Assembly: GCA_029378245.1 (NCBI GenBank)
Contig: JARKIF010000041.1
Span: forward strand, 62,001 to 126,000
Length of the DNA stretch: 64,000 nt
Reading direction: 5' to 3'
From: Roridomyces roridus
Taxonomy: Eukaryota; Basidiomycota; Agaricomycetes; Agaricales; Mycenaceae
In this document: in pieces, positions 18,920-64,000 of the stretch
How the letters are laid out: every line of letters begins with the position of its first letter
Numbering within the stretch: position 1 is the stretch's first letter
Notes under the pieces: generated by a model
What the model was told of the DNA's origin: nothing
Seen by the model: only the letters and a program-made list of their open reading frames with translations
Databases searched by the model: none
Program-made: the position numbers and the translations under genes

Positions 18920-19150
18920 GATGATAATGTGGTGATGCTAGGTGTAGATCGAGAGGCGTCGAGTGTGCGTCGAAAAACGGTGATCAAGGCATGTGACGGT
19001 TTGAGCTGTCAAGCTGGCGTGTGATTATCGAGAGGCGTCGAGTGTGCGTCGAAAACCGGTGATTAACGTGTGTGACGGTTTGAGCGGTCAAGCTGGTGAT
19101 AGACGTGTGATTATTCGGGAGAAGTTCAGTTACGGCCGGGGCCCATAACC

Positions 19151-26463: not shown

Positions 26464-29360
26464 CTACTTTTTGGAGGCAGGAAATTTGAATCTGGAAAAC
26501 AATTTGGAGAGCCTCTTGACACTGGTGTGTTTGGATTCTGTATCCTTGGCCTTCCCCAAAGCATCTCTTGTGATCATTAAGTCTTTGGTAGCCCGGAGAG
26601 TATCTGGATGGTCAGGGCCTAGGACATCCCTGCGTTTGGCAACAACTTTGAGTTGAAGATTTTCCGCTTCTTGGTGCCGGCCGGTCCTATAAAGTGTCAC
26701 GGCAAGATTGGCCATGGCTCTCAGGGTGTCAGGATGATCATCGTTGAGGAGTTTCTGACGCTGTTCAAGCACAATAGTTTCCAGCGGCTCTGCCTCTTGG
26801 TACCGTCCCAGTTTCCAGTATGTGAGTGCAAGGCTGGCCATGGCTCTCAAGGTGTCAGGATGGTGATCACCAAGGAGCTTCTGACGCTCTTTGAGGACAG
26901 AAATTTCGAGGGGCTCTGCTTCTCTGTACCGACCCAGTTGCCGGTATGTGGCTGCAAGGTTGGCCATGGCTCTCAGGGTGTCAGGATGGTCATAACCAAG
27001 GAGCTTCTGGCGCTCTTTGAGGACAGAAACTTTGAGGGGCTCTGCTTCTCTGTACCGACCCAGATGCCCGTATGTGGCTGCAAGGTTGGCCATAGCTCTC
27101 AGGGTGTCAGGATGGTCGTCACCAAGGAGCTTCTGACACTCTTTGAGGACAGAAATTTCGAGGGGCTCTGCCTCTCTGTACCGACCCAGTTGCCCATATG
27201 TGACTGCAAGGTTGGCCATGGCTCTCAGGGTGTCAGGATGGTCATCACCAAGGAGCTTCTGACGCTGTTTGAGGACAGAACCTTCAAGGTGCTCTGCTTC
27301 TCTGTACCGACCCAGTTGCCCGTATGTGGCTGCAAGGTTGGCCATGGCTAACAGCGTGTCAGGATGGTTATCACCAAGGAGCCTCTGACACTGTTGAAGC
27401 ACAGAAATTTCCAGGGGCTCTGCTTCTCTGTACCGACCCAGTTGCCCGTATGTGGCTGCAAGGTTGGCCATGGCTAACAGGGTGTCAGGATGGTTGTCAC
27501 CAAGGAGCTTCTGACGGTGTTTGAGGACAGAAATTTCGAGGGGCTCTGCTTCTCTGTACCGACCCAGTTGCCCATATGTGGCTGCAAGGTTGGCCATGGC
27601 TCTCAGGGTGTCAGGATGGTCATCACCAAGAAGCTTCTGACGCTGTTTGAGGACAGAACCCTCCGTCATAATATATCCGTGCATATTGGCTCCAGAACTG
27701 AGAATTCACAACAGTGAAATCTGGGACAAGCATATTGACATGTTCAATCATCCTGATCCTGTCCAAATATGTGTCAGGGCCAACATCTATTGACATCCCC
27801 ACCACATTTGCCATGCATGCCCGTGTTGTTACTGCATCAGGTAGGGTGCTTGAGCACCACAGATGCACAAGTGGATGCATATCTAGTGTCTCGCTGGCTT
27901 CCTGGCTCTGAATCAGTGAATATTCCTCAATCTCCGCCACAATTTTCCTGAAATATTGTCTTGACCAACTTCCTGAACCTGAGACAAAGTTTTGGAGAAA
28001 TTTCCTGGCTTCCCGCATTGACTCAGTTTCATCCCCCTCATTGTTTACCATCCACTCTGTGGCCTTGGCAAACATTGACTGGGGAACATTGCTGTGGTGC
28101 AATACAGCACAGAATTGGAGAAACTGGGCAGCTACTGGGCTGAGTTCCCCAAAGCTGATCTGCCAGGTTGTATAGACAGTCCATCCATAGTTATCAAGAG
28201 TTTGATCAGGGTGCTGTCGCAACAACTCTTCTTTGTTCTGCCTGTAGATTGACAGATAATCCCTGAGACATTTGAATTTGGCAATATAAGCCCCAGCTTG
28301 CACAATTGCAAGAGGCAGGCATGACAGCTCCTGCGCATCTTGATAAGTATGAAATCATTGTCCGAAGAACCTGGGACCTACCTGCACAATGCCCATCGCT
28401 AATGTATGGTCTTCATCTGTGTGCTCCTGGACCTTCAATGCTCTTGCAAGAAGCAGAAGAGTAGCATTTTCTTCATCCAAGTCTCTCACTTGTGAGTGAG
28501 AAGCAGGCCCATAAGCAGCAACTTGTGGGTTTCGGGAAGTGATGATAATATTTCCATGTGTGCACTGTGGCAAGAATGGCAATAACTTCAGTTTTGGATC
28601 ATCTGCATTGTCAAACAGCAGAGTCCACTCTTTGTATTCAGAAATAAGCCACTGGATGCCTGCTTCTGGTGTTTGGCCAAACCTCTGAGAAATTGCGATG
28701 TTCGTGAAGGAGTTATTCAGCGCTTCAGAGGAACTGGCATTCACAAAAAATTGCCTTGATACCCTGAAAAGGATGTCAATAATACGGAAATTACTCCTTT
28801 GCACACATACTCATCAGATGTTTCCTCAAGAAATCTCAACGCTATCTGAGTCTTCCCAGAGCCACCAAGACCATAGAGGACAAAAATCCTTCTCTTCTTG
28901 GGTTCTTGGGAGAAGTACTCTTGCATCTTGTCCAGAATTTCATTTCTTCCGTGAAAAATCTGAGATGCTGGAGGACATCGGACAAGTGCCAGAGCAGTGT
29001 GGCATTCTTCCTGAGCTGTGATTATTTGATTAGTGGGCCTCAGACATATTTATTTGGTACATACTGATGAGTTCAATTTGACCTTGCTGTCTTGGTTCTT
29101 GACCATGTGAATAAACACTGTGTACAGTGAGATCAAGCTCTTGCAGCAGCATTGGGAATTTACTTCAAGTTATTGATCTGACTTTGATAAAACAGGGCTC
29201 CCCCTTCACCGGGACCTCCTTCTCCCCCATGTTGGTCACCGCCTCCGCCAGAACCACCGGTGCCACCTGAAAGTCAGCCAAGTACTGCTCACTTTGATTT
29301 GTGCTCACCGTGTGCATGAAAATGTGTCCCCATCTGTGTTTCAGCAGTGGGCAAAGACAT
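26464..29360 (-). pseudogene. NB-ARC-TPR (NLR-type) gene, copy 1, frameshifted before the TPR array
   Basis: Exons: 29309-29360 (MSLPTAETQMGTHFHAHG), 29183-29266 (GG-rich tract), 28811-29015 (P-loop GLGGSGKTQIALRF), 28382-28763 (Walker B WTLLFDNADDP, IIITSRNP), then the winged-helix part from about 28330 downwards. The TPR array (26464-27684) has nine 42-residue repeats of the kinesin-light-chain type (LLGDDHPDTLRAMANLAATY). Compared with the copy at 61209, bases encoding KFEQAKGLDELNLQRQRE are missing at about 27665 and the frame shifts: the NB-ARC frame ends FCPQTASEASW, and the TPR frame runs alone. The break looks like unequal recombination within the repeats. The NB-ARC half and the TPR half may still be transcribed, but no single full-length product is possible. 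Confidence 0.8.
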
Positions 29361-38845: not shown

Positions 38846-40350
38846 TCAAGCAGGGGGCAGGATACAGTCGGTGCCATTGTCATCACAAGAGCCCTGGGTC
38901 TTGGGGTCCTGCACACTGTATATTGTGGGTCAGATCCGAAATGTACGCAGAACGAGCGACTTACATCGACTGGATCGACTCGGCCGGGCCAGGCTTGGTC
39001 GGGAGATGCGGGAAGGGCGACTTGCACGCCTGTTGAACATCCTTGCTGGTCAATGTGGGCGGGAAGAACGCCTGTGCCTGTGCCGCGGAGAGCTTTGCAG
39101 CCGCAGGGATGACCTCAGAGCAATCCGTCATCTTGGCCACGTTCTGTCCGAGACTCTGCATCTTGTAGAACGACTTTTGGAACGCCTGGGCCATCTTTGC
39201 CTGGTTGTTCACGTTGCCCTGCCAGAGGCAAGCCGTGGCCGGATCACGGGCCAGTGCAAAGTCCGACTGAAGGCGCAGCTCGCCCTTGATGGGAGTGTCC
39301 TCCTCTCCCTTGTTTTGGCTACCGCCGAGCGTCTTGTTACCGATCAAGAGGGTTTCGAGGTAGAACTGAGTGTCGAAGAGGGATGGTGTCGAGTCGAACG
39401 GAACACCGGCGGCATCAGGATCAACATCGTCAGCGCCGGCGATGGAGTGACTGTTACGATGGTAAGTGAGGATAGAGTACATGATGAGACTGACTCACGA
39501 GGCAAGCAGGGCCACGGTATCCGCAGCGGTGAGACCAGCATCGGCCATTCGGGCAAGAATAGTCTGCGCACTCTCTGGAACCAGGTTCAAATATGATCAT
39601 GTTCGAATCAAAATACATACGGAAGGCCTCCGGCACGGTTCCATCGGGAGCGGGGAACTTGGCATCCACACGTCCGAGAAGGAAAGGAGGCTGCAGTACT
39701 CCCGGGCATTTAGTCAGGCCAACCGCGGCAGCGAACTGGATGCTATTCCGAGGTCAGCAGAAAAAATTAAGACTTGAAATATGACCATACAAGTCGCCAA
39801 CTCCGATGGCTCCGCGGTGCTTTTCGATGAAAGGCGCCTCGAGGTTGAACGCGTCGGCAATACCGAGGTTGGCATCGTAGCCAATTTCTGTCTCGCCAAA
39901 GATGAACATGGATCCGTCTGCACCGGTACTGCGGGTAAAGTCAGGCACAGTTCACATGGGCATCGGATCTGTCGCATACCCGAACTTTGGATTGTGTTGC
40001 GAGAAACCGATGGCGTCGTGGAAGGCCACACGAAGCTGCATTTGAAATGAGATTGACTTGTGAGTCACCTCAAAGGAATGCGTACAGTAGCGTGGGCAGC
40101 GTCACCGCACCCAGAGTCACCAAACATGTTGGCCTGTATATCCTCGAGAACGGGGAAAAGAGCGCAACATTTGGGATTCGAGGCCGAGTTCTTGCCGTCG
40201 GGGCACAGATGCTTGGCGGGGATGGTGGCCGCCGCTATGAGCTTGGGTAAGTCACCATAGACAGTGGCCCTGAGGGAATCACCCACCATTGGCAACACCG
40301 CTGATAGCAGCAGTCAGTGCGAGAGAGGCAACAAGAGAAGTCCAAGTCAT
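38846..40350 (-). CDS. Secreted class II haem peroxidase, generic type
   Basis: Eight exons (40287-40350, 40086-40234, 39980-40035, 39791-39928, 39621-39742, 39499-39574, 38965-39450, 38846-38915) with seven 46-52 bp introns give 386 residues, close to the family's usual length. The start MTWTSLVASLALTAAISGVAN is a signal peptide. Distal site: Arg73, Phe76, His77 in LRVAFHDAIGFS; calcium-site motif GTGADGSMF; proximal His203 in LLASHSIAGADDVDP, followed by PFDSTPSLFDTQFYLE. The C-terminus has a Cys pair (GSCDDNGTDC). By eye, the two Mn-binding glutamates of MnP are replaced (QANMFGDSGC, Ala and Ser) although the matching Asp209 is kept, and the exposed catalytic Trp of LiP/VP is Ala (TVALLAS). 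This predicts a generic, low-redox peroxidase using H2O2 on small phenols outside the cell. Confidence 0.93.
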
Positions 40351-42540: not shown

Positions 42541-45500
42541 ATGAAGGCGGCTATTGTGCTTGCCTTTGTGTTATCTTTAACGACTTTGGTGGTTGAAGCA
42601 GCGCCTCGGGATACCAATGCCCGGCGTCTTGCTCGCGGTCTTCCTCCCCTCCCACCTGTTCGTCGCAAGCCCGGTGCGCCTCTCCTTGTCTCATCCTCTG
42701 CTTGACACTAAGCTCTATCTATTCAGGTGCGAAACGCATCCAGGCGTCGTCGACTCCATTCCAATGCGCGGCCAAAAAGAATTTTTGCTGCGACAATATC
42801 GAGGCTTCGAGCAGCGCTGATGCCAGCCACTACCTCACCGGTCTCGGGATTCCGTCCAACAGTTATGGGGCGCAGATTGGTACCGGGTGCACTGTGTTGG
42901 CAGGGGATTCTTGGTGCGTCGCCTGTTATTTTCACCCTCGTATTGGATGCTTATTGGTGAACGAATAGCTCGTCGGATAGCCGTCCTGCGACTTGCTGTG
43001 GCAATATTATGGGCCCGGATCTCGTCGGTATTGATTGTGCTCCCGTCGTTGTTTCCTCGTCTTCGTCCTCGCATCCGGCTTCGTCGACTTCTGCTACTGC
43101 ACGCTCGAGTGCTAGCTCGTCTGCATCTTCTGTACGCTCCTCCTCCGTCTCTGTGTCTCATACATCCAGCGCCTCGTCGGTGGGACGCTCTAGCGCGTCG
43201 TCAGCGTCTGGTCATGCCAGCGGCTCGGCCTCGTCTGTGATCCGCTCGAGCTCTGCGCCTGGATCTTCTGCAGCGCGGTCGAGTGCTTCATCGGCGTCGA
43301 CTCGGAGTTCCTCGGCGGCTGCTTCCTATCACACCAGCAGCTCCTCGTCCGTGGCTCCCTCTTCCCATGCAAGCTCCGCCTCTTCTGCATCTCGTGCTTC
43401 CAGTAGTGCGAGTGCCTTGTCTGCCTCCTCAGTGCATTCAAGCGGTTCATCTGCGTCGGCGCGCCCTTCGAGTGGCTCGTACTCGGCGTCGGCATCGTCT
43501 GCGCGTGCTAGTAGCTCTGCGTCCTCTGCAGTTCACTCGAGCGTGTCCTCGGCGTCGGCTCCTTCCTCGAGTAGTGTGTCAGTCTCGCGTGCCAGCAGCG
43601 TCCATTCCAGTTCGGTATCCTCGGCATATCATTCCAGCGCCAGTGTTTCTGCTTCTCGGCAGAGTAGTATCTCCTCAAGTGGTAGCGCCTCGGCCTCGCG
43701 GGGTAGCAATTCCATGTCTATCTCTGCTTCGCGCGCAAGTAGCTCGGGCTCATCTACGGGTCACACCAGCGCTTCGTCAGTATCCCTCCGTCCGTCGATG
43801 AGCCCTTCGTCCTCGCGGGCCAGTAGCCTCAGCTTTGCTTCTTCCTCCCGCGTATCCTCCTCGGCCATCTCCGCCTCTCGTACGAGCAGCGTCTCTTCCG
43901 CACCCTCAGCATCGGCGACTGCATTCCAATGCGCGTCAAAGGACAAATTCTGCTGCTCCAACGTCGAGGCGGCCAACAGCGCCGACGGTCTTGGCGTCGT
44001 CAACGGAGTTGGGTTGAACCCTGACAGCTGCGGGGAGGAAATTGGGACTGGGTGTGTGCCGATGGTTGGGGGCTCTTGGTGCGTTGATTCTTTAATTTTT
44101 CGTTTCATGAGTAATTGATTTTGGATTCCAGCTCTCCGGGAACGACCCCCGCTGAATGTTGTGGTAATACGGTGGGATCAAATAAAGTGGCCATCGACTG
44201 CACGCGCGTACCTGTTTCTTCTTCAGCCTCGCGGACGGCTTCCTCGACTTCCACTTTGCCGACCGCCTCGTCCAGTGCGCGGAGTTCTGTATCCGCAGCC
44301 TCGGCATCATCGGCATCACTCCGCCCGTCGAGCAGCACCGTTTCGGCTTCTCGTGCAAGTGGCTCATCGTCGGCATCTGGTTCACAGGCTATCTCGGCAT
44401 CGGCATCTTCGGCTTCGATTCGCTCCAGCAGCCTGGCGTCTCACCCCAGCTCATCGGCATCTTCGGCGGGATCCGGGTCACATGCCAGCAGTGCTGTGTC
44501 ACCGTCGGCATCATCACGTGCAAGTGCCGCCTCTTCTTCTTCTGCGTTGTCGTCTCGTAGCTCCAGCGCGTCAAGCAGCGTCGCGTCGTCTCATGTCAGT
44601 GGTTCGGTTTCTTCTGCGTCTCGATCCGCATCAGTCTCTGCGAGCAGTGGGCGGAGCTCGGCTGCCGGTGAGTATCTTTCGTTTTTAGCTTTGGATCTGT
44701 TGAAGTAATTCTTCGTAGGCTCTTCCTCTGTGCAATCACGCTCGAGTGGTGTATCGTCGGCGTCCTCCCACGGATCAAGTACTAGTTCGGCGTCGTCGAA
44801 CCCGAGTAGCTCAATTCACAGCTCGGCTTCCTCGGCGTCTGCTGCTTCTCGTGGCTCTTCAGCGCGTGAGTGTCTCGTATTATTCCACATCCATTCTGTC
44901 ACTGAATAATTTGTGATTAGTATCGTCTTCTGCACGCCCAAGTGCCAATAGCGTCGCTTCCTCGGCACACGCTTCAAGTTCGTCTGCCTCTGCTTCGAGC
45001 TCCATCCGTATCTCCTCTGTTGGTACGTATAACACCCTTTTTGCCTCGGTCTTGACTGAAGTTTCGGTAGGATATTCTTCCTCGCAATCCAGGTCGAGCT
45101 CCGTTGCAAGCAGCGCAGCGGTGTCTTCTGCCTCGCATGTCTCTGGCTCCGTGTCCGCTAGTCGTTCGAGTTCTAGTGCCTCCTCTGCCAGCGCTCCGCG
45201 TTCCAGTGGCTCTGTATCCTCGGTATATTCCTCGGTGTCCCGCTCGTCGGTGATTTCGTCCAGTAGTGGACGAGGCTCGAGTTCCGCGGCTGGTGAGTGT
45301 TGCTTTTCCCCCTTGATTGAGTGGGATCATGCTAACCGTCTGTAGGATCTTCTGCATCGTCCCGTGCGACTAGTTCTGCGTCAGCCTCTCACTCAGGCAC
45401 GGCTTATTCGAGTAGCGCTCGGAGTTCCTCAGCTGCTGGTGAGCATCATTTTGTGTTGCCCATTTTCTCCGATTTGAACTGATGGATGTGTTTTAGGGTC

Positions 45501-48500
45501 GAGTGGCATGGCGAGTTCAACAATCCGTGAATCCTCGGCGTCGGCGCACCAGTCGAGTAGCAGTGCTCCGGCCTCGTCTCATGCCAGCAGTTCGGTGGCC
45601 CATTCGATTTCGGGTAACTCGGCTTCAGCTTCCGTCTCTCACTCTGCCTCTGTTTACTCGAGCTCCGCTGGTAAGATTTTTCGTTTTCCCTCCTTTCAAA
45701 TCGCGATATGAACGTATTTTCAGGATACTCCTCTCAATCCCGGCCTAGTTCCAGTCTTCGCTCGTCCTCGGCATCGTCAGCGTCTACTCGCCAGTCGAGT
45801 AGCAGCGCGTCTGCTTCATCTCGTGCACGCAGTTCTGCAGCGTCCGCCTCTCGGTCGACCCCGGCTTCCTCGAGCTCAGCGGCTGGTGAGTATCATTCAG
45901 AAATCTTCCTTGCAAACTCATTGTTGATTTAAACATCTCTTAGGCGCCTCTTCCCAATCACGGTCCAGCGGCGTCCCGAGTTCCAGCGGCGCATCGTCGG
46001 CGTCTACCCACCAGCCGAGTGGCAGTGGGTCTGTTTCATCTCGTACCAGCAGTTCCGTGCCTCGTTCGAGTAGTTCGGCGTCAGCTTCCGCCGCTGGATA
46101 TTCTAGCAGTGTTCGCAGCTCCTCGACCGGTGGGTATTAATCCTGACTTGGACCTCGTCTAATTTGTCTAAATTTGAACCTTGTAGGGTCTTTTGCCAGC
46201 GGAGTTTCCAGCAGTTCGAATTCAGCACGCCCGAGTAGCGGGTCTTCGGCATCAGGTGTCAGCAGCTCCGCTTCTGTTTACCAGTCAGGCAGCGTTTCGG
46301 CATCTCGTTCCAGTGGCTCCGCGTCTGCTTCCTCTGCTTCTCACTCGGCCATTTCTGGTGGGTTGAATTGCCCCTCCTATGTGGATTTATTGTTCAACTG
46401 TTTTTAGGTTACTCTTCATCCCAACATTCCGGCGGCGTAGCCAGCAGCAGTTCGGTGCATTCAAGTTCCATGCCCCACAGCTCGGCAGCTTCAATTTCCG
46501 CTAGCAGTGGCCCTAGCTCGACAGTCGGTGAGCAAACGATCTTTCTCGTTAGTTGAGTCGGCTGGAGTTGATCAAAACAATCTCAGCGTCGTCCTCCGCA
46601 CACCCGAGCAGCGTATCGAGCTCTGCATCGCATTCAAGCAGTGGCTCTGCATCTCAGGGTAGTAGTTCCGTCCCGCGTTCGAGTAGCGCTGCCTCATCGG
46701 CGTCTCGACCAACGTCCGTTTATTCGAGTGCGTATTTCGTTTATGTTCCCAACCGACATCCGATGGTAAATGTTCCGCAGGCTCTGGATCGCGTTCAAGC
46801 AGCCTATCAGGTTCCTCGAGCAGTGCGAGAAGTTCATCTGTTGGTGCGTAACCTTTCTATATCTCCGAGTGCGACTCAATTTTTGGGTGTAGGATCCTCG
46901 TCTGCAGTCTACAGCTCGGTTTCTCGACCGTCGTCCACGGGACGCGGCAGCAGTTCAGCTTTCTCGGCATCTTCGGCTTCGACGCGCCAGTCTAGCAGTT
47001 CGGTCCCGCATTTGAGTAGCCTGGCGTCTTCTTCGTCGGCCTCCTCATCGCGCTCGGTGGGGTATTCGAGCAGTGTGCATAGCTCGTCTGTTGGTCCGTA
47101 TATTTATTCGTTTCAATTCCATATTTGGTGTTGAGCTTTTGCTGTTAGGATCTTCCTCGGCATCTTCGGCGTCGACGCGTCAATCGAGTAGCGTTTCTGC
47201 GTCTCATGCAAGCTCGGGTAGCACAGTACATTCGTCGTCTTCGACTCGCCCGTCGAGTAGTAGTGCATCGGCGTCTTCCCATGCGAGCAGTTCCGTCTCG
47301 AGCTCGATGCCCACGCGTAGTTCCTCAATTGGTGAGCTACTCTTTCCAAAATCCCCATTGAATGCGTTGACTTGAGATCCTTTGTAGGATATTCTTCTGC
47401 TTCATCGCGCTCGAGCGGTGTGCCCAGTACTTCGGCCTCTGCGTCATCCCGCCAATCCAGTTCTGCATCTGCATCCTCACGTGCAACCAGTTCAAGCTCC
47501 GTTCCTGTTTCTTCGCGCAGTTCGTCGTCTGGTAAGTGGTCATAGTTCCCAAGCCTTTTCGATTCCAAATGATCTATTCGTCTGCAGCCTCTCGTTCCAG
47601 CGGTGTTCCCAGCAGCTCCGGCGTAATCTCTTCACACTCAGCTTCTGGGTACTTAAGCACTGTGCGTAGCTCTTCGACCGGTGCGTATTCCATTTATTAT
47701 TGCTATGTAATATTCCGAATGAGCTCAATCCTTCTAGGATCGTCAGCGTCGGCGCGACAGTCTAGCAGTGTATCCGTATCTCCTCACTCAAGTAGCTCTG
47801 CATACCACTCGGCATCTGTTTCCGCGAGCAGTGTGCGCATTTCGTCGTCTGGTGAGTTGTTTTTTGGAGTGGTTGGAGTGATACTGATTCCAACTTGTCT
47901 ACAGGCTATTCGTCGTCCGTCCAATCCCGCTCTAGTGGCGTTCCCAGCAGCGTGTCCTCCGCTTCTACGCGTCAACCCAGCAGTTCGGTTTCGCATACGA
48001 GTACAGTTCCATCCTCCTCGCGCTCTGTAGGGTCTTCGACCAGTGTGCGTAGTTCGGCTGGTGAGAATTTTATCTTGTGCTATTTGAATTTGGCTCACTC
48101 CTTCCAGGATCTTCCTCCGCATCGTCTGCATCGACACGCCAGTCAAGCAGTATCTCGGCCTCTCACTCTGTGTCGGCGTCACGCGCGAGTAGCTCGGGCT
48201 CCTCAGTGTCTGGCAGTGCTTCGTCCTTGCGTGGCAGTAGCTCCAGCTCTCCGTCCTCCTCCCACGCATCCTCCGCCTCTCGTGCAAGCAGCGTTTCTTC
48301 CGCACCCTCAGCATCTGCGACTGCATTCCAATGCACCTCAAAAGTGAAGTTCTGTTGCTCCAATATCGAGGCTGCGAAGAGTGCGGATGGCATTCGCGTA
48401 CTTGACGGAGTTGGATTAAGTCCCGACAGCTGTGGGGAGCAGATTGGTACTGGCTGTGTTGCGATGTCTGGGAGTTCCTGGTGCGTTGGTGCTTCATTTT

Positions 48501-51500
48501 TCTTTACATTCTTCTTTCTAACTTGGTGGCCATTTCAGCGCAACTGGAACGACGGCCGCTGAATGTTGTGGAAATACTGTTGGATCGAATAAAGTGGGCA
48601 TCGACTGTACGAGTGTGCCGCTTTCATCCTCGGCTTCGCGTACGGGTTCCGCGTCATCCACCGCCACCGCCTCGGCCTCGCGCTCCATTAACTCGGCGCA
48701 GTCATCCGCGTCATCAGTTCGGTCGGCATCGGCGAGTGCACGGAGCTCTGCATCCTCAGTATCGGCATCATCGGCATCACTTCGGCAGTCCTCGGTTTCG
48801 AGGGCGAGTAGTATCTCGCCGTCTGCATCTGCTTCTGTGTCGCGGAGTACCAGCCTGTCGGCATCCTCGGCATCGCTCCGCCAATCCAGCAGTGCGATTT
48901 CAGCCTCAGGTTCGAGGGCCAGTAGTATCTCGGCGTCTGCATCGCGGAGTTTCATTTCGTCTGCATCGGCATCTCTTTCACGTGCTAGCTCCGCCTCTTC
49001 AGCGATTAGTGGGGTATCAGCATCGCGTGGAAGTAGCTCCGCAGCTGGTAAGTCAACATTTTTAAATTTTCTTCTTTCAATGCTGCTTGGATGCTGATGG
49101 GTTCGAATTCTTAGTATCCTCCTCTGTGCATTCAAGTACCGCGTCAAGTTCGGTGTCGGCGCGCCAGTCGAGTGTTTCTGCCTCGCGTTCGAGCTCGGTT
49201 GGTTCCACGAGCACTGGGCGGAGTTCTTCGGTTCAAGGTCAGTCATTCAAATTCCAGAGTTGTTATTGGTTTCTCATTGAGTTCTGTGCAGGGTATTCGT
49301 CCTCGTCCCGCTCCAGCGGTGTACCAAGCAGCTCAGGTCGTCCGAGCAGCGCGTCCTCTGCATCTCGAGCATCTTCGATGTCGTCGGCCTCCATCCGCCC
49401 GTCAAGTAGCAGCGTCTCTTCAGCTTCAGCTCAATCTCGTGTGAGCAGCTCTAACAGTATGCCGCGTAGTTCTTCTGGTGAGTTATTCTTGAATTCAGGT
49501 TCGTTGAGGTGTTGTTGACTCGAAATTTCTTTAGGGTTCTCTTCAGCTGGACCTAGCAGCTCAGCGCACTCGGCGTCGTCCTCTGCGTCGGTTCATCAAT
49601 CGAGTAGTATCTCGGCTTCGCGTGCAAGCAGTATCGTGGCATCGTCGTCTGCTTATCGGTACGCGAGCTCATCTGCAGGTGCGTATACTTTATAATGTGC
49701 TCTCTCCGATGTTGACATGAAATTTAGGATACTCACACTCGAGCGCGTCCAGTGGAATTTCATCAAGCGCGTCTCGTGCGAGTAGCTCTGTGCCTCACTC
49801 GAGTAGCTCGTCGTTGGCGTCTGCAAGTTCTATTTCTATTTCGCGTTCGGCGTCGGCTGCTTCGAGCAGCGCGCGTGTTTCGTCTGGTAAGCGTTCTTAT
49901 CTTGATAGGATTTGTTTTTCTTATTGACTGTTTTGTAGGATATTCTTTTGCCCATGCTTCTAGCAGCGTTTCAGCATCAAGTTCACGTGCATCGAGCAGT
50001 GGTTCAGCATCTCGTGCCAGCAGCGCTAGTTCCTCCGCGTCTGCATCTCGCACTTCTTCGAGCAGTATCCATATCAGCAGCTCGGCGGCGTCGCGCACGA
50101 GCTCAGCAGTCGCGTCGTCATCCGCTGCTGTCTCTTGCAACGGGCAGTCGACTTTCTGCTGTGACTCAATCGACATTCCTACGAGCGCGCATGGAAGTAG
50201 CTGTCTCGCTAATGCGGGGATTTCGTCTGCTATGAATGTCGGGGCGAACATTGGCATTGGTTGTGTTTCCCCCTCGACTGTTGGTGGAGTGCAGACTTGG
50301 TGGGTGATTTTCTGGCTGGGACTCAGAGGTCGTAAAATTGACGGTGGATTAGCTCTGCGTACAAAACCCCACTGAAGTGCTGCAAGACGCTGTTTGACGC
50401 GCCTCTCTTTGGTGGAATTGGTATTGATTGCACGGCTGGTGAGTGTGTCGGGTCATCTTCCCAAAATTTATTGACACTTCGCCAAGGGACATTATCGAGC
50501 GCGTCAGCGTCCCATTCATCCACTCAGCCATCGACTTCATCCTCGTATAGTCGAACATCAAGTAGTAGCAGTTCGGCATCGACCTCCCGGACGTCATCAA
50601 TTTCCCACGTCACGTCATCGGCCGGCTCTGCGTCTTCCTCTCATGTTCCCTCGTCGAGTAGTGCAATTCGCTCCTCCAGCGCGTCGGTTGCGTCGCGCAG
50701 CAGTGTTTCTGGTGTGTCCTTGTACCTTTCTTGTTGTTTTCAAGACTTATGCCACCATCTACTAGCGTCATCTGCCTCGAGATCAAGTCTACCCTCGAGT
50801 GGTTCCGTAGGATCATCGTCTTTGCATGCCAGCAGCTCGGCAGCGTCGTCGCGTGCCAGTAGTATTTCCGCAGGTGTGTAAACGTGCGATGTCTGAGGGT
50901 ATACTTATCTGACCAAACTTTCAGCTGTATCGTCTTCATCCGTATCGTCGCATGCTGCATCATCATCCAGTGCCTCCCGCAGTGGATCGGCATCATCATC
51001 GCGTCCCAGCAGCTCTGCCTCCACGAGTAGGAGCGGGTACGGCTCGTCGATTTCTGCTCACTCGAGTGGAGCCGTTTCCTCGAGTGGTGGTGTCTCATCC
51101 CGGGCCAGTGTTACTTCGAGCCTGAGTAGCGCTCGGGGCATTTCGTCCAGCGCACCATCTGCATCAGCTTCTCTTCACTCGAGCGCGTCGGCTGCTTCCC
51201 AGTCCACCTCGTCTTCACATTCCGTATTGGCGTCTCGTACGAGTAGCTCTGCAGGTGGGTATTACTGGGACCCTTCAGACGAGAAACTTCTGACATATTT
51301 ATCAGCTGTTTCCCCACACTCCGCCTCCGCCCCTTCTGCCCAGTCCTCGCGCGCTGCGTCTTCATCGGGGCACCTTTCGTCCAGTAGCTCGGGATCAGTC
51401 TCAACGTCCTCGCATCCCAGCAGCTCTGCGTCTGCAAGCAGGAGTGGATATAGCTCCTCGACGTACACTTTCCATGCCAGCAGCGCCTCCAGCCATCCAA

Positions 51501-54500
51501 GCGAGTCGTCTACTGTGTCAAGGGCATCTTGGGCCTCGGCGTCGTCCCAACGCCCAAGTAGCTCTGCATCAGCGTCCGCTAGCAAGAGCTCGTCGACTTC
51601 TGCCCACTCAAGTAGCGCCATCTCGAGCGCCAGTGGAGCCCTCAGCTCAAGTGCTGTCTCCTCCCATCTCAGCAGCGCCTCTTCCAGCGCAGCATCAGTC
51701 TCCGTTCGCGCCAGCGCGTCGTCTGCTTCCTCACACGTTAGCAGCTCGGTGGGGCGTGGGTCATCATCCTCGGTTCCCTCGAGTGGTGGATCTTCCTCGG
51801 CTCGTGTTAGTAGCTCTGGCTACTCTTCCCATGCCAGTGGTGCTTCCAGCTCGGCCTTCCATTCGTCGAGTGCTGCTCCATCGTCAGCGCACTCTGCGAG
51901 CTCCTCTTCCCCTCGTTCGGGTAGCAGTAGCAGCTCCCCCTCCCCGCGTTCCAGCAGTGTACCGGCCAGCTCTGCCACGTCAGCTCACTCGAGCGGTGGC
52001 TCCTCGGCCTCTTCGGCTCGGGGTAGCAGCAGCGCATCTTACGCTCGCTCCAGTAGCGCATCCTCGTCAGCGAGGTCGAGTGGCGTATCCTCCGTTTCGG
52101 CGTCCATCCGGCCTAGCAGCAGTGTCTCGGCGCGTTCGAGCGTTTCCGCTTCATCAGCTTCTGCTCGTTCCTCTGCCCACCCCAGCAGCTCTGCCTCTAT
52201 ATCGGCATCCCACTCCTCATCTCGCGCCTCTTCAGCTTCTGCCAGTGCTTCGTCCACGCCGTTCCAATGCACTGCCAAGCAAACCTTCTGTTGCTCGACC
52301 TTTGAACGCGCCAAGAGCACGGAAGGACTGAGCATTTTGAGTGGCGTCGGTCTGTATCCCGATAGCTGTGGAGAGCAGATTGGAACTGGATGTGTGCCTG
52401 TTTCGGGTGGTTCCTGGTACGTGTCTTGTCCGTGTTCTTGTCAATTTGCTGATCCTTTTAGCAGCTCCTCGGACAAGATTGCCGCGCAATGCTGTGGCCA
52501 GACTGTCGGCTCCAATCTTGTCGGTATTGATTGCACGGAGGTCACGCTCTCGGCCGCGCACTCCTCGACCGTGGCTTCCTCGAGTTCACGGGGAGTCTCG
52601 GTTTCGTCCTCGGCGCGTTCTTCTAGCTCTGCGTCATCCGCCACCGGCAGCTCTGGTGTTCCCCGCAGTTCTTCGTCGTCGGCGCGTGCGAGCAGCTCGT
52701 CTTCTTCGGCTTCTCCTCGGAGCTCCTCCGCAGGTGTGTATCTTTTCTTTTGGTCTGAAATTCTGAAGATTGATTTCGCTCTTTAGGATACTCTTCCATT
52801 CATCTGAGCAGCAGCTCTGCTTCCTCTGTCCGCGCTTCCAGTAGTGCCGCGCCTTCGTCCTCGCATTCTTCTGCATCAATAGTGCGGTCCAGTAGTGTGG
52901 CGTCGAGCAGTGCGAGTGGAGCCCGTGGCTCGTCTTCGGCGGCTGCTTCCTCTCCTTCCTCGTCTTCTTCGCACGGAGTCAGCTCGGTGTCGGTCTCAAC
53001 GTCTGTAGCTCGTTCGAGCTCGGTGGGCTCTTCGAGCGCGCCTCGTTCCTCGAGCTCTGCCCCATCCTCGTCCGTGCGGGCTAGCTCCAGTGCTCAGGCC
53101 TCCTCGAGCGTGCACTATAGCTCTGCCGCGACTTCCTCATCAGTAGCGCATTCCAGCTCTGTTCCTTCCTCCTCTCCTCGCCCGAGTTCTAGCGTTGCAT
53201 CATCCTCCGGCGTGCATTACAGCTCGGTGGCGCCGTCTTCCTCTGCTGCGCGCTCTAGCTCTGCAGTACCTTCATCCTCGGCGGCTCGTTCGAGCTCTGC
53301 GGTGCCTTATTCCTCCGCCCATTCCAGTGCAGTGGCATCTTCGACGTCTCGTTCGAGCTCTTTCGCAGCCTCATCCTCCCCGGCTCGCTCCTCTGCAGCG
53401 CGTTCGAGCATCGTCTCCTCATCATCAGCTCATTCCAGCGATGCTGCATCATCCGTTCACTCGTTGTTAGCCCACCCGAGTAGCTCCATCGCGCGCTCGT
53501 CTTCAGCTTCTGCCAGTGCTTCGTCTACGCCCTTCCAGTGCGCCACCGCTCAAAACTTCTGTTGCTCGACTTTCGAGTCTGCCAAGAGCACTGAGGGACT
53601 TGGCATCCTGAACGGTCTGGGTCTACACCCCGACAGCTGTGGAGAGCAGATTGGGACGGGATGTGTACCCGTTTCCGGAGGTTCTTGGTGCGTCTTTCGT
53701 GTTACTGCAGGTTACTTTATACTGATCTCGTTCTTTGCAGCTCGTCGGATAAGATTGCTGCCAAGTGCTGTGGGAATACCGTCGGCTCTAACCTCGTCGG
53801 AATAGACTGCTCGTCTATTACGCTGCCGACTGCCGACTCGTCGACGGTGGTACCCTCGAGTTCGGCTACCCGCGGGTCTGGCTCGGCTTCGAGCCATCTT
53901 AGCAGCGCCTCGTCTGTCTTCCGCGCGTCTTCGGCTGCAGGTGTGTCTTTTTGGCGCTCTGCAAGTATGCATGACTGACCTTGCATTTCCAGTATACTCT
54001 TCTGTATCATCTGCGCGCGCCAGCAGTGCAATCTCGAGCAGCGGGCATGCCAGCAGCTCGGTGGTGCCGTTGGCATCTTCCTCCTCTCGGGGAGGTAGCT
54101 CTACGTCTTCGACGGCGCGTTCATCGTCAAGCGTGGCTGCTACGCGGTCGAGCTCGATACCTGCAGCGTCTTCAAGCGCCCCGCATTACTCCAGCTCGGC
54201 TTCCTCATCGAGCCAAGTGCGTTCAAGCTCAGCATCCTCCAGTGGGCATTCCAGCGCCGCTCCACCTTCGTCTTCCGCGGGACACTCCAGCTCTTCCGTC
54301 CCATCTTCCTCTGCCCACCCGAGTTCGAGTGCCCAGACCTCCTCGAGCATTCGCTATAGCTCTGTCGCGCCCTCCTCATCGGCAGCGCGTTCCAGCTCTG
54401 TTCCCTCCTCGTCTTCTCGCCCGAGTTCTAGCGCTGCAGCGTCCTCCACCGTGCATTTGAGCTCAGTGGCGCCGTCTTCATCAGCGGCGCGTTCTAGCTC

Positions 54501-55379
54501 CTCGTCTGCCCACCCGAGTTCTAGCGCTTCATCATCCTCCAGCGTGCATTTGAGCTCGGCGACGGCCACTTCCTCTGCTGCCCGCCCCAGCTCCAGTGCC
54601 CAGGCCTCCTCGAGCTCGCATTACAGCTCTGTAGCGTCTTCCTCGTCGGCAGCGCGTGCTAGTTCTGTGGCGCCTTCCGCCTCTCCCCGCCCGAGCTCTA
54701 GTTTCGCAGCGCCCTCTTCCTCTGCTGCTCGCTCGAGCTCTGCAGTGCCATCGTCGTCTTCCCACCCAAGCTCGAGCGCCCCGGCCTACTCGAGCTCGCA
54801 TTACACCTCCGTAGCGGCTTCTTCATCGGCACCGCGTTCTAGCTCTGTGGCTCCTTCCTCTGCCCGCCCGAGTTCTAGTGTCGCAGCGCCCTCTTCCTCT
54901 GCTGCTCGCTCGAGCAGTGCTGTGGCTCCGACGTCTTCTTCCGTCACGGTTGCGCACACGACGACCACATCCACAACGCAGACACATACCACCACCACCA
55001 CCACGACGACGACGCACACTTCGGCATCCGCATCCACTGGCGTGCCGCACTACAAGCGGGATTCGACTTGCACTTCCCGAACGTCGTATTGCTGCCAAAA
55101 CGTGTCGGATGACGGTGTCGGTGCCGAGTGTTCGGCGGCAGCAGTGATCCGGGGGATTGCCAGATGGTGAGTTTCCATTGCGAGTCGTTTCATGCGGTTG
55201 TGGTGATACGTCCATTTTAAAGCCCGTCCGACATGCAGCCCTTCTCGTGCTGCTCTGAGCTTGATGATGATGATTCGACGGGGCGTGAATGTGTGGCGGG
55301 TATGTGATCTTGATATTTCGACCTTGTCCAGTCATGCTCACGGTTTGTAGTAATGCCTCCGCGTAGCCGCTGGATCTAA
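42541..55379 (+). CDS. Giant secreted poly-hydrophobin: seven hydrophobin-like modules in Ser/Ala-rich linkers
   Basis: My splice model has 39 exons and 38 introns of mostly 45-67 bp and sums to 10,806 nt, 3,601 residues. MKAAIVLAFVLSLTTLVVEA is a signal peptide and AKR (46-48) a Kex2-type site. Seven modules carry the hydrophobin order C-CC-C-C-CC-C, first Cys at residues 58, 428, 1555, 2044, 2669, 3060 and 3535; all fall in frame in the one model. An intron sits exactly in the fifth-Cys codon (TG|C, phase 2) of every module. Linkers of hundreds of residues are Ser/Ala with regular Arg/His/Pro/Val (SSASSASxRxSS), likely heavily O-mannosylated; a Thr-rich tract (54958-55020) precedes the last module. 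Linker introns are phase 1. Exon 38 is entered at 55223. Hydrophobins are normally ~100 residues and coat aerial hyphae, so a wall or surface-coat role is inferred. Ordinary annotation might split this into several genes. Confidence 0.85.
42765..43038 (+). other. Hydrophobin module 1
   Basis: Cys spacing C-6-CC-32-C-7-C-8-CC-12-C. The extra Cys present in modules 2, 3, 5 and 6 (PDSCGE) is Tyr here (SNSYGA), leaving exactly eight. Confidence 0.85.
43930..44201 (+). other. Hydrophobin module 2
   Basis: Nine cysteines: the eight of the signature plus one in NPDSCGEEIGTGC. Intron 44079-44131 splits the fifth-Cys codon. Confidence 0.85.
44202..48331 (+). other. Intron-dense Ser-rich linker between modules 2 and 3
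   Basis: Exons 5 to 21 are 63-222 nt long, all a multiple of three and bounded by phase-1 introns. Most begin G|GATCTTC or G|GATATTC (Gly-Ser/Tyr-Ser) and many end GCTG|GTGAGT or TCTG|GTGAGT. They look like tandem duplicates of one small exon-intron unit. Confidence 0.75.
48332..48608 (+). other. Hydrophobin module 3
   Basis: Nine cysteines, close to module 2 (KVKFCCSNIEAAKSADG; CCGNTVGSNKVGIDC). Intron 48481-48538 at the fifth Cys. Confidence 0.85.
50136..50431 (+). other. Hydrophobin module 4, divergent
   Basis: CNGQSTFCCDSIDIPTSAHG...NIGIGCVSPSTVGGVQTC...LKCC...GGIGIDC. The extra Cys is at a different place (GSSCLANAG), and the loop before the fifth Cys is longer than in the other modules. 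Intron 50300-50352. Confidence 0.8.
52268..52534 (+). other. Hydrophobin module 5
   Basis: Nine cysteines (AKQTFCCSTFERAKSTEG; YPDSCGEQIGTGC; AAQCCGQTVGSNLVGIDC). Intron 52417-52461. Nearly the twin of module 6. Confidence 0.85.
53539..53810 (+). other. Hydrophobin module 6
   Basis: Nine cysteines (TAQNFCCSTFESAKSTEG; HPDSCGEQIGTGC; AAKCCGNTVGSNLVGIDC). Intron 53688-53740. Confidence 0.85.
55069..55291 (+). other. Hydrophobin module 7, C-terminal and compact
   Basis: Preceded by HYKR (Kex2-type site). Spacing C-6-CC-11-C-11-C-8-CC-12-C, shorter between the third and fourth Cys and without the extra Cys. Correct frame requires the acceptor at 55222 (TTTTAAAG) rather than the later CATGCAG. 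Confidence 0.75.
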
Positions 55380-55901: not shown

Positions 55902-55919
55902 CCCCCCCCCCCCCCCCCC
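55902..55919. repeat. Homopolymer run of 18 C
   Basis: Follows TTTTTTTCGACCCTGGCTGGA; a similar T-run, TCGA, C-run arrangement recurs at 56221-56263. Confidence 0.85.
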
Positions 55920-56243: not shown

Positions 56244-56263
56244 CCCCCCCCCCCCCCCCCCCC
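56244..56263. repeat. Homopolymer run of 20 C
   Basis: Second copy of the T-run/C-run arrangement, here after TTTTTTTTCGAGCCCTCTCGGGA; probably two copies of one repeat. Confidence 0.85.
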
Positions 56264-56469: not shown

Positions 56470-58031
56470 TGCCGCACCGCTGTCTCTCGATCCAAGAAAT
56501 CGTCGGAGAAATATGCTCCCAGCTCAATCCCTATGACCCAGAGGATAGATACCGCAATGGGAGCTTGTTCAAGCCTTCGGAATACTACTCCCTGGCGCCG
56601 CTCGCGGCCATGGCGAGAACATGCAGATCTTTCAGCGAGCCAGCTCTGGATGAGTTGTGGTCGTCGGCCAAACTCGAATCCGTTCTCCTTCAGAGTTGCA
56701 TGCCAGACAATGCCTGGCATGTCTCGCAGCTTTACGGTTCCCATCGCGAATCACGCTATATGCTTGTGAGTGTAGTCTGGCGGTTACCACGCCCCCGGTG
56801 CAGGAGGGTTCCCTTATTATGTAATATCCCCGTTGGCAAACCACGTGCATTTGACAGCTATTACTTTTGCCAATGTCCCGACGCGTTCTGGCGCTACCAG
56901 GATGTGTTGGCTGGAACTTTAAATACTCTTGGGCTACTGGGTATATTTTTTGCATCATCCTTTGTTCTGCATAGCAAGGAATGGCCTCCGAGCCCATTGT
57001 TTGCATGTTGTTTGGGAATGAAACACAACTACCGGCACCAGCTCTTCCAAGGGCTCCGAGGATGAAAAATAGTCCAGAATTGCATTCCGAGGAGTGCAGT
57101 TATGCCTCAGTTGCATGCTCATTGGTGCCAGCCCAAAATTCACGTCGAAACACGCAGGAAACGCGCTCGCACATGACATGCTTATGTAACAACGGAACCC
57201 AACGGAACAAGGGGCGTGGTTACCAACAGACCCTCTTCGCGGAGCTTGCGGAGCGTCGAGGGTCTGTAAAAGAGACTATTGTGAGTGGGCATGGACCGCG
57301 ACTCCGTTTCACTGACGGTCCACCAGGAGCCCATCTACGAACTTGACGCTTCGCATGGCGAACGGCTTCGCCTTGCCGCGGCGCGTGTCCGACACCTCCT
57401 TGCTGAAGAGGAAATCGTGGATATGGCTCTCCTGTCTCAGCTGGTTGCGAATTTCGGCCGGCTGCAGAGTGTCCATTGGCGTCGCCCTGACACAGGCTTC
57501 GAGCAATTATATTCGACCTTTGTGGTCTCGTCGCTCGTCGCCATCCGCCTTTTGATTACATGGAAAGTTCCCCTCGCGACATTCGCAGTCCAGCAACCGC
57601 AGCTCAAGGAGATTCACATCAGCATCCCGACGCTCACGGATACGGGGCCCGATCATGGTCCCGCAATTGCCGCATTATTGGGTGGTCTCCGTCATCTCGA
57701 AAGGGTCACTGCGGCGCAGTTCAATTATGACGGTCTACTGCACCTCGCTTCGCTCCCAAATTTGCGCTATTTGGAAGCGGAACGAGGTAATCGCCGGAAC
57801 GCCATCCCCGACTGGCTTGCCCCACTGCCAGCCGACATCCGGGCGTTTCCGTCTCTCGAGCAGCTGGCGCTGGAAGCCTCAGTCCAGGGCATCACCCAAC
57901 TTCTTGGATGGTGCGCACAAGTCCCATTGCAGCACCTGGGCCTCGCCATCCGTGCCAACGACTCTTCTACGGAGGCCAAATTGGATGACCTATTCGGCAT
58001 TATTCCGATCGCTGTTTCCCATGCAACACCC
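56470..58031 (+). pseudogene. F-box/LRR-type gene, 5' and middle parts
   Basis: The N-terminus MPHRCLSIQEIVGEICSQL ... LAAMARTCRSFSEPALDELW is the F-box-like motif of the large Agaricomycete family. A likely donor follows at about 56766 (GTGAGTGTAG), and the reading frame resumes near 57297 (VHQEPIYELDASHGERLRLA...) with LRR-like text LPNLRYLEAERGN and FPSLEQLALEA. The intervening 0.5 kb contains a small TIR element, possibly inside an intron. The frame ends at VSHATP followed by a stop contributed by the insertion at 58032. F-box proteins of this type select targets for ubiquitin ligases; the substrate is unknown. Confidence 0.68.
56782..57224. mobile_element. Short TIR element in the F-box gene
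   Basis: Ends GGTTACCACGCCCC and complement of GGGGCGTGGTTACC (one mismatch). No ORF; target duplication not visible. Confidence 0.45.
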
Positions 58032-61208: not shown

Positions 61209-64000
61209 CTACTTTTTGGAGGCAGGAAATTTGAATCTGGAAAACAGTTTGGAGAACCTCTTGACGCTGGTGTGTTTAAATTCTGTATCCTTGGCCTTAC
61301 CCAAAGCATCTCTGGTGGTCATTAAGTCTTTGGTAGCCTGGAGAGTATCTGGATGGTCAGCGCCCAGGACATCCCTGCATTTGGCAACAACTTTGAGTTG
61401 AAGATTTTCTGCTTCTTGATGCCGGCCAGTGCTATAAAGTGTCATAGCAAGATTGGCCATGGCTCTCAGGGTGTCAGGATGGTCGTCACCAAGGAGCTTC
61501 TGACGCTCTTTGAGGACAGAAATTTCGAGGGGCTCTGCTTCTCTGTACCGACCCAGTTGCCTGTATGTGGCTGCAAGGTTGGCCATGGCTCTCAGGGTGT
61601 CAGGATGGTCGTCACCAAGGAGCTTCTGACGCTCTTTGAGGACAGAAATTTCGAGGGGCTCTGCTTCTCTGTACCGACCCAGCTGCCAGTATGTGACTGC
61701 AAGGGTGGCCATGGCTCTCAGGGTGTCAGGATGGTCGTCACCAAGGAGCTTCTGACGCTCTTTGAGGACAGAAATTTCGAGGGGCTCTGCTTCTCTGTAC
61801 CGACCCAGTTGCCTGTATGTGGCTGCAAGGTTGGCCATGGCTCTCAGGGTGTCAGGATGGTCGTCACCAAGGAGCTTCTGACGCTCTTTGAGGACAGAAA
61901 TTTCGAGGGGCTCTGCTTCTCTGTACCGACCCAGCTGCCAGTATGTGACTGCAAGGGTGGCCATGGCTCTCAGGGTGTCAGGATGGTCGTCACCAAGGAG
62001 CTTCTGACGCTCTTTGAGGACAGAAATTTCGAGGGGCTCTGCTTCTCTGTACCGACCCAGTTGCCTGTATGTGCCTGCAAGGTTGGCCATGGCTCTCAGG
62101 GTGTCAGGATGGTCGTCACCAAGGAGCTTCTGACGCTCTTTGAGGACAGAAATTTCGAGGGGCTCTGCTTCTCTGTACCGACCCAGTTGCCGGTATGTGG
62201 CTGCAAGGTTGGCCATGGCTAACAGGGTGTCAGGATGGTCATCACCAAGGAGCTCCCTTTGTCTCTGCAGATTCAGTTCATCCAAACCCTTTGCTTGCTC
62301 AAATTTACCTCCGTCATAATATATCTGTGCATATTGGCTCCAGAACTGAGAATTAACAACGGTGAAATCTGGGACAAGCATGTTGACATGTGCAATCATC
62401 CTGATCCTGTCCAAATATGTGTCACGGCCAAGATCCATTGACATCCCCACCACATTTGCCATGCACGCCCGTGTCGTTACCTCATCAGGTAGGGTGCTTG
62501 AGCACCACAGATGCACAAGTGGATGCATATCTAGTGTATCACTGGCTTCCTGACTCTGAATCAGTGAATATTCCTCAATCTCCGCCACAATTTTTCTGAA
62601 ATATTGTCTTGACCAACTTCCTGAACCTGAGACAAAGTTTTGAAGAAATTTCCTGGCTTCCCGCATTGACTCAGTTTCATCCCCCTCATTGTTTACCATC
62701 CACTCTGTGACCTTGGCAAATATTGACTGGGGAATATTGCTGTGGTGCAATACAGCACAGAATTGGAGAAACTGGGCAGCTACCGGCCTGAGTTCCTCAA
62801 AGCTGATCTGCCAGGTTGTATAGACAGTCCATCCATAGTTATCAAGAGTTTGATCAGGGTGCTGTCGCAACAACTCTTCTTTGTTCTGCCTATAGATTGA
62901 CAGATAATCCATGAGACATTTGAATTTGGCAATATAAGCCCCAGCTTGCACAATTGCAAGAGGCAGGTATGACAGCTCCTGCATATCTTGATTAAGTCTG
63001 ATATCATTGTCCAAAGAACCTGGGACCTACTTGCACAATGTTTGCAGCCAGTCTATAGTTTTCATCTGTGCACTCCTTCACTGCTCTTGTAAGAAGGAGA
63101 AGAGCAGCATTTTCTTGATCCAAGTCTCCCACCTGTGAGTGAGAAGCAGGCCCATAAACAGCAAGTTGTGGGTTTCGGGAAGTTATGATAATTTTTCCAT
63201 GTGTGCACTGTGGCAAAAATGGCAATAACTTCAGTTTGGGATCATCTGCATTGTCAAACAGCAGAGTCCACTCTTTGTGTTCAGAAATAAGCCACTGGAT
63301 GCCTGCTTCTGGTGTCCGGCCAAACTTCTGTGAAATTGCAATGTTCATGAAGGAGTTATTCAGAGCTTCTGAGGAACTGGCATTCACAAAGAATTGCCTT
63401 GTAAACCTGAAAAAAGGTTTTCAATCATGAAGAGGTTCCTCTTTCACAGACATACTCATCTGATGTACCCTCAAGAAATTTCAAAGCTATCTGAGTCTTC
63501 CCAGAGCCACCAAGACCATAGAGGACAAAAATCCTTCTCTTCTTGTTGTCTTGGGAAAAGTACCATTGCATCTTGTCAAGGATTTCCTTTCGTCCCTGAA
63601 AGATCTGAGATGCTGGAGGACATCGGACAAGTGCCAGAGCAGTGTGGCATTGTTCCTGAGCTGTGATGTTTGATTAGTGGGCCTCAGACATATTTACTTG
63701 GTACATACTGATGAGGTCAATTTGACCTTGCTGTCTTGGTTCTTGACCATGTGAATAAACACTGTGTACAGTGAGATCTGGCTCTTGCAGGAGCACTGGG
63801 AATTTACTTCAAGTTATTGATCCGACTTTGATAAAACAGGGCTCCCCCTTCACCGGGACCTCCTTCTCCCCCATGTTGGTCACCGCCTCCGCCAGAACCA
63901 CCGGTGCCACCTGAAAGTCAGCCAAGTACTGCTCATTTTGATTTGTGCTCACCATGGACATGAAAATGTGTCCCCATCTGTGTTTCAGCAGTGGGCAAAG
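61209..64000 (-). CDS. NB-ARC-TPR (NLR-type) protein, copy 2, intact apart from the edge
   Basis: Exons 63953-64000 (the start ATG lies about 4 bases beyond the window if it matches copy 1), 63827-63910, 63456-63660, 63031-63406 and 61209-62978, about 828 residues. The order is: a leader and GG-rich tract (GGTGGSGGGGDQHGGEGG), P-loop GLGGSGKTQIALKF, Walker B WTLLFDNADDP, IIITSRNP, winged-helix region with MHPLVHLWCSS, then eight 42-residue TPRs (LLGDDHPDTLRAMANLAATY). Frame continuity needs the non-standard donor GTCGGA after exon 2; the better GTAAAT donor 19 bases on gives the wrong phase. Fungal NB-ARC-TPR proteins are STAND switches thought to act in recognition and cell-death signalling. 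The partner may share the GG tract. The last repeats differ (GRHQEAENLQLKVVAK) and cap the array. Confidence 0.85.
61449..62265 (-). repeat. TPR-coding tandem repeat, 126-bp period
   Basis: Six to seven near-identical 126-bp units encode the 42-residue TPRs. Units alternate between ANLAATYRQ and ATLAVTYWQ types, so a 252-bp higher-order unit has been duplicated recently. The matching array in copy 1 is more diverged. Confidence 0.85.

Follow-up and report, generated by a model that had tools for sequence, protein, structure and literature searches.

The window analysed here is a 64,000-nucleotide stretch of the genome of Roridomyces roridus (contig JARKIF010000041.1). All positions refer to this window, and names such as C1, C79 and C168 denote contigs of the same genome (90.8 Mb, 501 contigs). 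Hydrophobins are usually small proteins of about 100 residues that form monolayers and make fungi water-repellent. On the forward strand we found a gene predicted to encode seven hydrophobin modules in a single chain, separated by long Ser/Ala linkers (Table 1). Its reading frame opens with the ATG at 42541 and closes with a stop codon at 55377-55379. The final splice model comprises 39 exons and 38 introns of 45-67 nt each, contains no internal stop and yields a product of 3,601 amino acids with a calculated mass of 339.6 kDa and a pI of 11.27. The original prediction for this stretch had counted 3,602 codons and had placed seven modules in one frame behind one signal peptide. Our independent model gave the same figure (3,601 amino acids plus the stop) and reproduced this architecture.

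The model was built with our own splice program under mild scoring, and five short introns as well as the last intron were added by hand. It includes the intron at 50439-50486 (GTGAGT...AG), without which an earlier model comprised 3,617 amino acids, and an ambiguous acceptor (52461 or 52464) makes a difference of one residue. Retention of 31 of the 38 introns would cause a frameshift or a stop. The other seven (357 nt in total) can be retained without either, so that up to about 120 further residues are possible in the product. Thirty-one introns are in phase 1 and seven in phase 2, and every phase-2 intron splits the TGC codon of the core fifth cysteine between TG and C, once per module and including module 7.

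Table 1 Features of the predicted poly-hydrophobin gene. Positions are those of the 64,000-nt window.
Feature	Position	Strand	Remarks
Whole gene	42541..55379	+	39 exons, 3,601 aa; colinear second copy on C168
Signal peptide, residues 1-20	42541..42600	+	boundary set by eye; strongest hydrophobic 12-mer; conserved in paralogs
Lys-Arg, residues 47-48, likely Kex2 propeptide site	42732..42737	+	conserved in C168; VKR in paralog models
Hydrophobin module 1, 8 Cys	42765..43038	+	intron 42914-42968 splits the Cys5 codon
Ser/Ala linker 1-2	43039..43929	+	shares its exon with the adjoining halves of modules 1 and 2
Hydrophobin module 2, 9 Cys	43930..44201	+	Pfam score below cut-off
Linker 2-3, 1,044 residues by segment bounds	44202..48331	+	short exons related to each other; 18 introns, all in phase 1
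Hydrophobin module 3, 9 Cys	48332..48608	+	Pfam score below cut-off
Linker 3-4	48609..50135	+	
Hydrophobin module 4, 9 Cys, CNGQSTFCC type as in trimodular paralogs	50136..50431	+	Pfam score below cut-off
Linker 4-5	50432..52267	+	
Hydrophobin module 5, 9 Cys	52268..52534	+	Pfam score over cut-off
Linker 5-6	52535..53538	+	
Hydrophobin module 6, 9 Cys	53539..53810	+	Pfam score over cut-off
Linker 6-7, Thr-rich run at end	53811..55068	+	
Lys-Arg, residues 3530-3531, likely Kex2 site before module 7	55054..55059	+	present in C168 copy
Module 7, short, C-terminal, 8 Cys	55069..55292	+	Cys5 codon split by intron 55167-55222; without Pfam match

The C-CC-C-C-CC-C core is present in all seven modules. 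Modules 2-6 carry a ninth cysteine, both here and in the second copy of the gene described below, and modules 1 and 7 have eight. If the four usual disulphides form, the odd count would leave one cysteine unpaired in each of these five modules. In a Pfam search modules 1-6 matched PF01185 with E values of 3e-7, 1e-3, 0.012, 3e-3, 1e-4 and 2e-6, respectively, and the curated cut-off of 23 bits was exceeded by three of the seven modules (1, 5 and 6, module 5 by 0.1 bit). Two unrelated Pfam families gave weak matches below their own cut-offs. A profile of all seven modules matched five solved hydrophobin chains (7s7s, 6e98, 2nbh, 5w0y and 6e9m; E 6.3e-5 to 1.4e-3) and no other solved structure at E up to 1. 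These chains are related by profile, whereas each has 84-107 amino acids, one module and no long linkers. The window is not among the 21 PF01185 matches listed in a six-frame search of the genome, probably because an intron splits each module. Fourteen of these 21 matches lie at C279:196-540 kb, which looks like an ordinary hydrophobin cluster.

Class I hydrophobins have a long loop between the third and fourth cysteines and a variable cysteine spacing. In module 1 the spacing is C-X6-CC-X32-C-X7-C-X8-CC-X12-C, and module 7 has X11 where module 1 has X32. Judged against the general class I ranges, the poly-hydrophobin appears class I-like. The spacing differs from the class II consensus given for CmQHYD (CX9-CCX11-CX16-CX8-CCX10-C; PMC7827705), as the first loop is X6 in all seven modules and module 7 has only X11 and X8 in common with it.

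The continuity of the gene is indicated by its exon structure. At 11 of the 12 borders between modules and linkers, one exon holds both the module and the beginning of the linker, while at the twelfth (3' of module 4) an optional intron two residues past the last cysteine leaves the frame intact either way. In particular, a single exon at 42969-44078 runs from the latter half of module 1 through linker 1-2 into the first half of module 2 and shows no stop in the unspliced sequence. The introns within the linkers are all in phase 1. The top hydrophobic 12-mer of the protein is the signal peptide (Kyte-Doolittle 2.58), and the secretion signal is supported both by this hydropathy and by paralog conservation, residues 1-46 being 70-71% identical at seven paralog loci. 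The second-strongest 12-mer (1.93) lies at the end of module 1, and the eleven other internal methionines with a full window have hydropathy maxima of at most 1.28, without a second signal-like stretch. The absence of a second signal peptide, as claimed earlier, is thereby supported by hydropathy. As a control, ten other 4.35-kb segments of the window were traversed on two strands and in three phases (60 traversals), the weakest introns of the model itself setting the splice thresholds, a choice that favours the model. None of the 60 traversals was stop-free at these thresholds. The stretch from module 2 to module 3 was passable in its own phase with at least 14 introns and in none of the three phases of the reverse strand; at a stricter splice setting neither this stretch nor any of the 60 controls could be passed. 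The prediction of one gene for the whole stretch is well supported by these features, and both the gene model and the second copy place the modules in one predicted polypeptide.

The second, colinear copy is located on C168. Its own model comprises 37 exons and 3,535 residues and ends without the last intron, the GT of which is missing. The two proteins are identical at 3,070 of 3,378 aligned residues (90.9%). A partner on C168, no more than three columns away and of equal phase, was found for 35 of the 38 window introns; of the three without partner, one falls into a gap of 54 codons, another sits at a gap of 7 codons and the third is the last intron. One C168 intron has no partner in the window. 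Identity amounts to 92.9% in exons and 86.7% in introns, and gap lengths are multiples of three for 36 of 43 gaps in exons versus 3 of 19 in introns. The overall dN/dS between the copies is 0.33, with values of 0.59, 0.42, 0.08, 0.08, 0.18, 0.13 and 0.22 for modules 1-7.

Upstream of the gene the two contigs share 98% identity across about 3.4 kb; for the final 2.27 kb the figure is 97.1%, and for the final 500 columns 92.6%. Because of this high identity the C168 copy is probably the other haplotype. Alternatively, it may be a recent paralog, given that downstream of the gene no match between the window and C168 was present among the matches listed, about 1 kb of C168 past the aligned part being covered. 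Divergence within the gene forms a mosaic, with dS values of 0.008 in linker 1-2 and 0.03 in linker 3-4 versus values as high as 0.54 (module 3) and 0.32 (module 4), the upstream flank being 97-98% identical. This suggests gene conversion or old allelic segments.

By segment bounds the six linkers total 2,979 residues, 54.3% of which are Ser or Thr. They contain only four acidic residues, have a net charge of +169 and provide arms of roughly 290-1,050 residues between modules. Linkers 2-3 and 3-4 contain many short exons in phase 1 at both ends that code for similar Ser-rich units. Among 22 phase-1 linker exons, 62 of 231 pairs exceed a z of 4 in comparison to 20 codon shuffles each, and some of these exons are therefore probably duplicates. 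By tandem repeat search, the 3' part of the gene contains three short arrays, and another one follows downstream.

Six dibasic pairs are present, at residues 28, 41, 42 and 47 (propeptide), within module 1 at residue 61 and ahead of module 7 at residue 3530. These six recur in the C168 copy, which has no others. Residues 136-3520 contain no dibasic pair, versus a mean of 10.7 in 2,000 shuffles. As there are none between residue 62 and the Lys-Arg before module 7, modules 1-6 should stay joined, and Kex2-type cutting into monomers appears unlikely. Release of module 7, which follows a Lys-Arg conserved in both copies, is plausible.

Seven loci elsewhere in the genome (C312, C458, C246, C248 and three on C1) match the signal peptide and a type-1 module, and then carry a type-4 module and a third hydrophobin-type piece. 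In C246, C312 and C458, where it was read, this last piece contains seven cysteines and lacks an intron. The loci on C312 and C458 were modelled at 1,898 residues each, both models reading into an intron in module 2. Since all five automatic paralog models are faulty (C1_1125 starts at the wrong ATG; in C246 and C1_1178 module 1 lacks its second half and the model stops short of the third module), they were used only for the order of modules and for the 1,898-residue figure. A FastTree phylogeny built from 17 module sequences places module 4 beside the middle module of the paralogs (support 0.95) and, on long branches, module 7 beside their last one (0.96). Support for a grouping of modules 5 and 6 is 0.95, that for modules 2 and 3 only 0.52. 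In light of the trimodular paralogs and this tree, the window gene looks like a trimodular gene (types 1, 4 and 7) with insertions, which suggests that modules 2-3 and 5-6 were added later. A genome search with module 7 returned only the two full copies at E < 0.1.

Further related sequences were noted on other contigs. Contig C79 holds pairs of modules with Ser-rich frames between them. In one such pair, at C79:573973-578369, the Ser/Ala/Thr-rich frame between the two hydrophobin modules stays open for 1,241 codons, and this may be another type of multi-hydrophobin with a long linker. C79:248432-248683 and C187:17987-18238 resemble module 3 and its linkers; the C79 piece has stops nearby, has lost cysteines and is apparently a decayed, dispersed fragment of the gene.

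PMC7827705 describes multi-domain hydrophobins with 2-7 class II domains and 264-1,187 amino acids, which its GenBank survey placed in Cordycipitaceae and Clavicipitaceae only. The class II proteins CFTH1, CPPH1, CmQHYD and CEJ88606.1 resemble the window gene in having several modules, one signal peptide and hydrophilic linkers (PMC7827705). They differ in size and class II spacing (here 3,601 amino acids, class I-like), in linkers rich in Gly, Asn and Pro (here Ser and Ala; PMC7827705, PMC2253510, the latter reporting loops rich in P, G and N in the Claviceps proteins), and in a pI of 4.06-7.67, mostly acidic, in ascomycetes (here 11.3 in an Agaricomycete). The earlier view that known multi-hydrophobins are far smaller held for those tabulated, whereas seven modules in one chain have a precedent in a class II protein of 1,187 amino acids from Torrubiella hemipterigena (PMC7827705). 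According to PMC10820438, hydrophobins can exceed 400 amino acids if polyhydrophobins are included. Class I modules repeated in one chain, comparable to the class I-like modules here, are reported in PMC12375992, which explored more than 7,000 hydrophobins and lists 12 class I and 126 class II multidomain proteins with three to five domains. The class I set consists of 11 tri- and one pentahydrophobin and is biased to Fusarium. No seven-module class I case appears in the accessible part of that survey, the starting set of which was defined by the annotation words tri-/pentahydrophobin and a manual check of sequences above 250 amino acids, so larger cases could be missed. Likewise, no giant basidiomycete multi-hydrophobin was found by title or the start of the abstract among the open-access papers listed.

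Head-to-head with the hydrophobin gene lies the C-terminal part of a class II fungal peroxidase (38964-39494, minus strand; Peroxidase_ext, E 7e-23), within a block 98% identical to the DNA adjoining the C168 copy. The minus strand also carries a copia-type retrotransposon (14753-18937), the open frame of which spans 1,394 residues and includes domains for gag, integrase and reverse transcriptase. Further frames (26464-27705 and 61209-63026, minus strand; 7325-8314, plus strand) correspond to two very similar TPR_10 proteins with near-identical 42-residue repeats and an NACHT/NPHP3-type ATPase. The peroxidase end, the NACHT/TPR proteins and the copia-type element point to a white-rot Agaricomycete and an assembly that contains both haplotypes. 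Immediately past the 3' end of the hydrophobin gene, in DNA no longer similar to C168, two long poly-C runs (55902-55919 and 56244-56263) are each followed by a similar CCTCCC tract. A stretch of about 500 bp (56772-57278) recurs with 82-99% identity at several sites of the genome, one of them C479:24016-24522.

We consider it likely that the stretch is one gene for a secreted class I poly-hydrophobin, with modules 1-6 tethered by glycosylated linkers, that arose from a trimodular ancestor. A splice model that wrongly joins several neighbouring genes of one to three modules each could produce a similar picture, as a flexible model can join genes and crossed linker 2-3, the longest, in one wrong phase too. 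For this reason the codon sum, which was part of the original one-gene argument, is weak evidence alone. The argument as such was strengthened by the shared exons, the uniform phase of the linker introns, the single signal stretch and the impassable controls. Moreover, the C168 copy has the same layout and the paralogs represent a shorter version, which makes several genes the least probable of the alternatives considered. Scarcely more probable is a decaying, repeat-expanded hydrophobin gene without function. The linkers do change fast, with 41 codon gaps between the copies, and the degraded module-3-like piece with stops near 248 kb on C79 fits decay; both copies, however, are open at 9% protein divergence under the overall constraint given above, which is strongest in modules 3-6 (0.08-0.18).

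An unlikely, although somewhat less remote, alternative is a polyprotein, i.e. a precursor cut in its linkers into separate ordinary hydrophobins, like fungal Kex2 precursors. The Lys-Arg pairs after the signal peptide and before module 7 would suit such processing, and PMC12375992 calls for an evaluation of whether polyhydrophobins are cleaved into monomers. Against it stand the lack of dibasic pairs between these sites in either copy, which concerns Kex2-type sites and not other proteases, and linkers that far exceed the length spacers need. Furthermore, four of the six linkers, those with high divergence, appear constrained between the copies (dN/dS 0.39, 0.35, 0.35 and 0.30), although the underlying alignment is one of repetitive sequence.

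Besides this repetitiveness, several observations weigh against a tethered poly-hydrophobin from a single gene. Linkers 1-2 and 3-4 have dN/dS values of 0.81 and 0.90 from just 6 and 33 changes, so these values do not show constraint there. The dibasic scarcity may stem from the repeat pattern, in which Arg and His are mostly spaced 7-16 residues apart, and no Lys-Arg was seen before the third module of the paralogs read. The stretch from module 2 to module 3 was also passable, with 15 introns, in one of the two other plus-strand phases. Modules 2, 3 and 4 score 19.9, 16.6 and 18.7 bits, below the PF01185 cut-off, and module 7 gave no PF01185 match in the Pfam search; the hydrophobin assignment of the original prediction was thus recovered by Pfam for modules 1-6 (three over the cut-off) and not for module 7. 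Finally, gene and product are predicted here from sequence alone.

In the favoured reading of a tethered poly-hydrophobin, Kex2 would remove the N-terminal propeptide and the C-terminal module 7, leaving modules 1-6 tethered. The linkers would be O-mannosylated and form stiff, basic, hydrated arms. The modules would insert together at an air-water or wall interface, and one molecule might then pin several points of the rodlet layer and tie this layer to the wall or to neighbouring hyphae, and the ninth cysteine of modules 2-6 could cross-link chains. Such a product would serve as a tethered, glycosylated surface coat, thick or cross-linked. The gene may have originated from a trimodular ancestor (modules 1, 4 and 7) by addition of two modules to each linker, symmetric phase-1 exons being gained and lost.

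More tentatively, it may be speculated that the protein represents a new fungal surface polymer, in which a long, basic, O-glycosylated cable of Ser and Ala carries the hydrophobin modules like beads and five of these each offer one unpaired cysteine for covalent cross-linking. Instead of forming a monolayer, it could connect rodlet layers with the wall or the substrate in the manner of a tether or net. It could be one of a family that grows by symmetric exon gain and comprises proteins of three and of seven modules, together with two-module relatives with long linkers. Such genes can escape surveys restricted to short hydrophobins. Duplication of phase-1 exons within Ser/Ala linkers is a suggested route by which modular surface proteins grow. 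A natural hydrophobin of about 340 kDa would allow a test of how tethering alters rodlet assembly and would offer a natural template for multivalent coatings.

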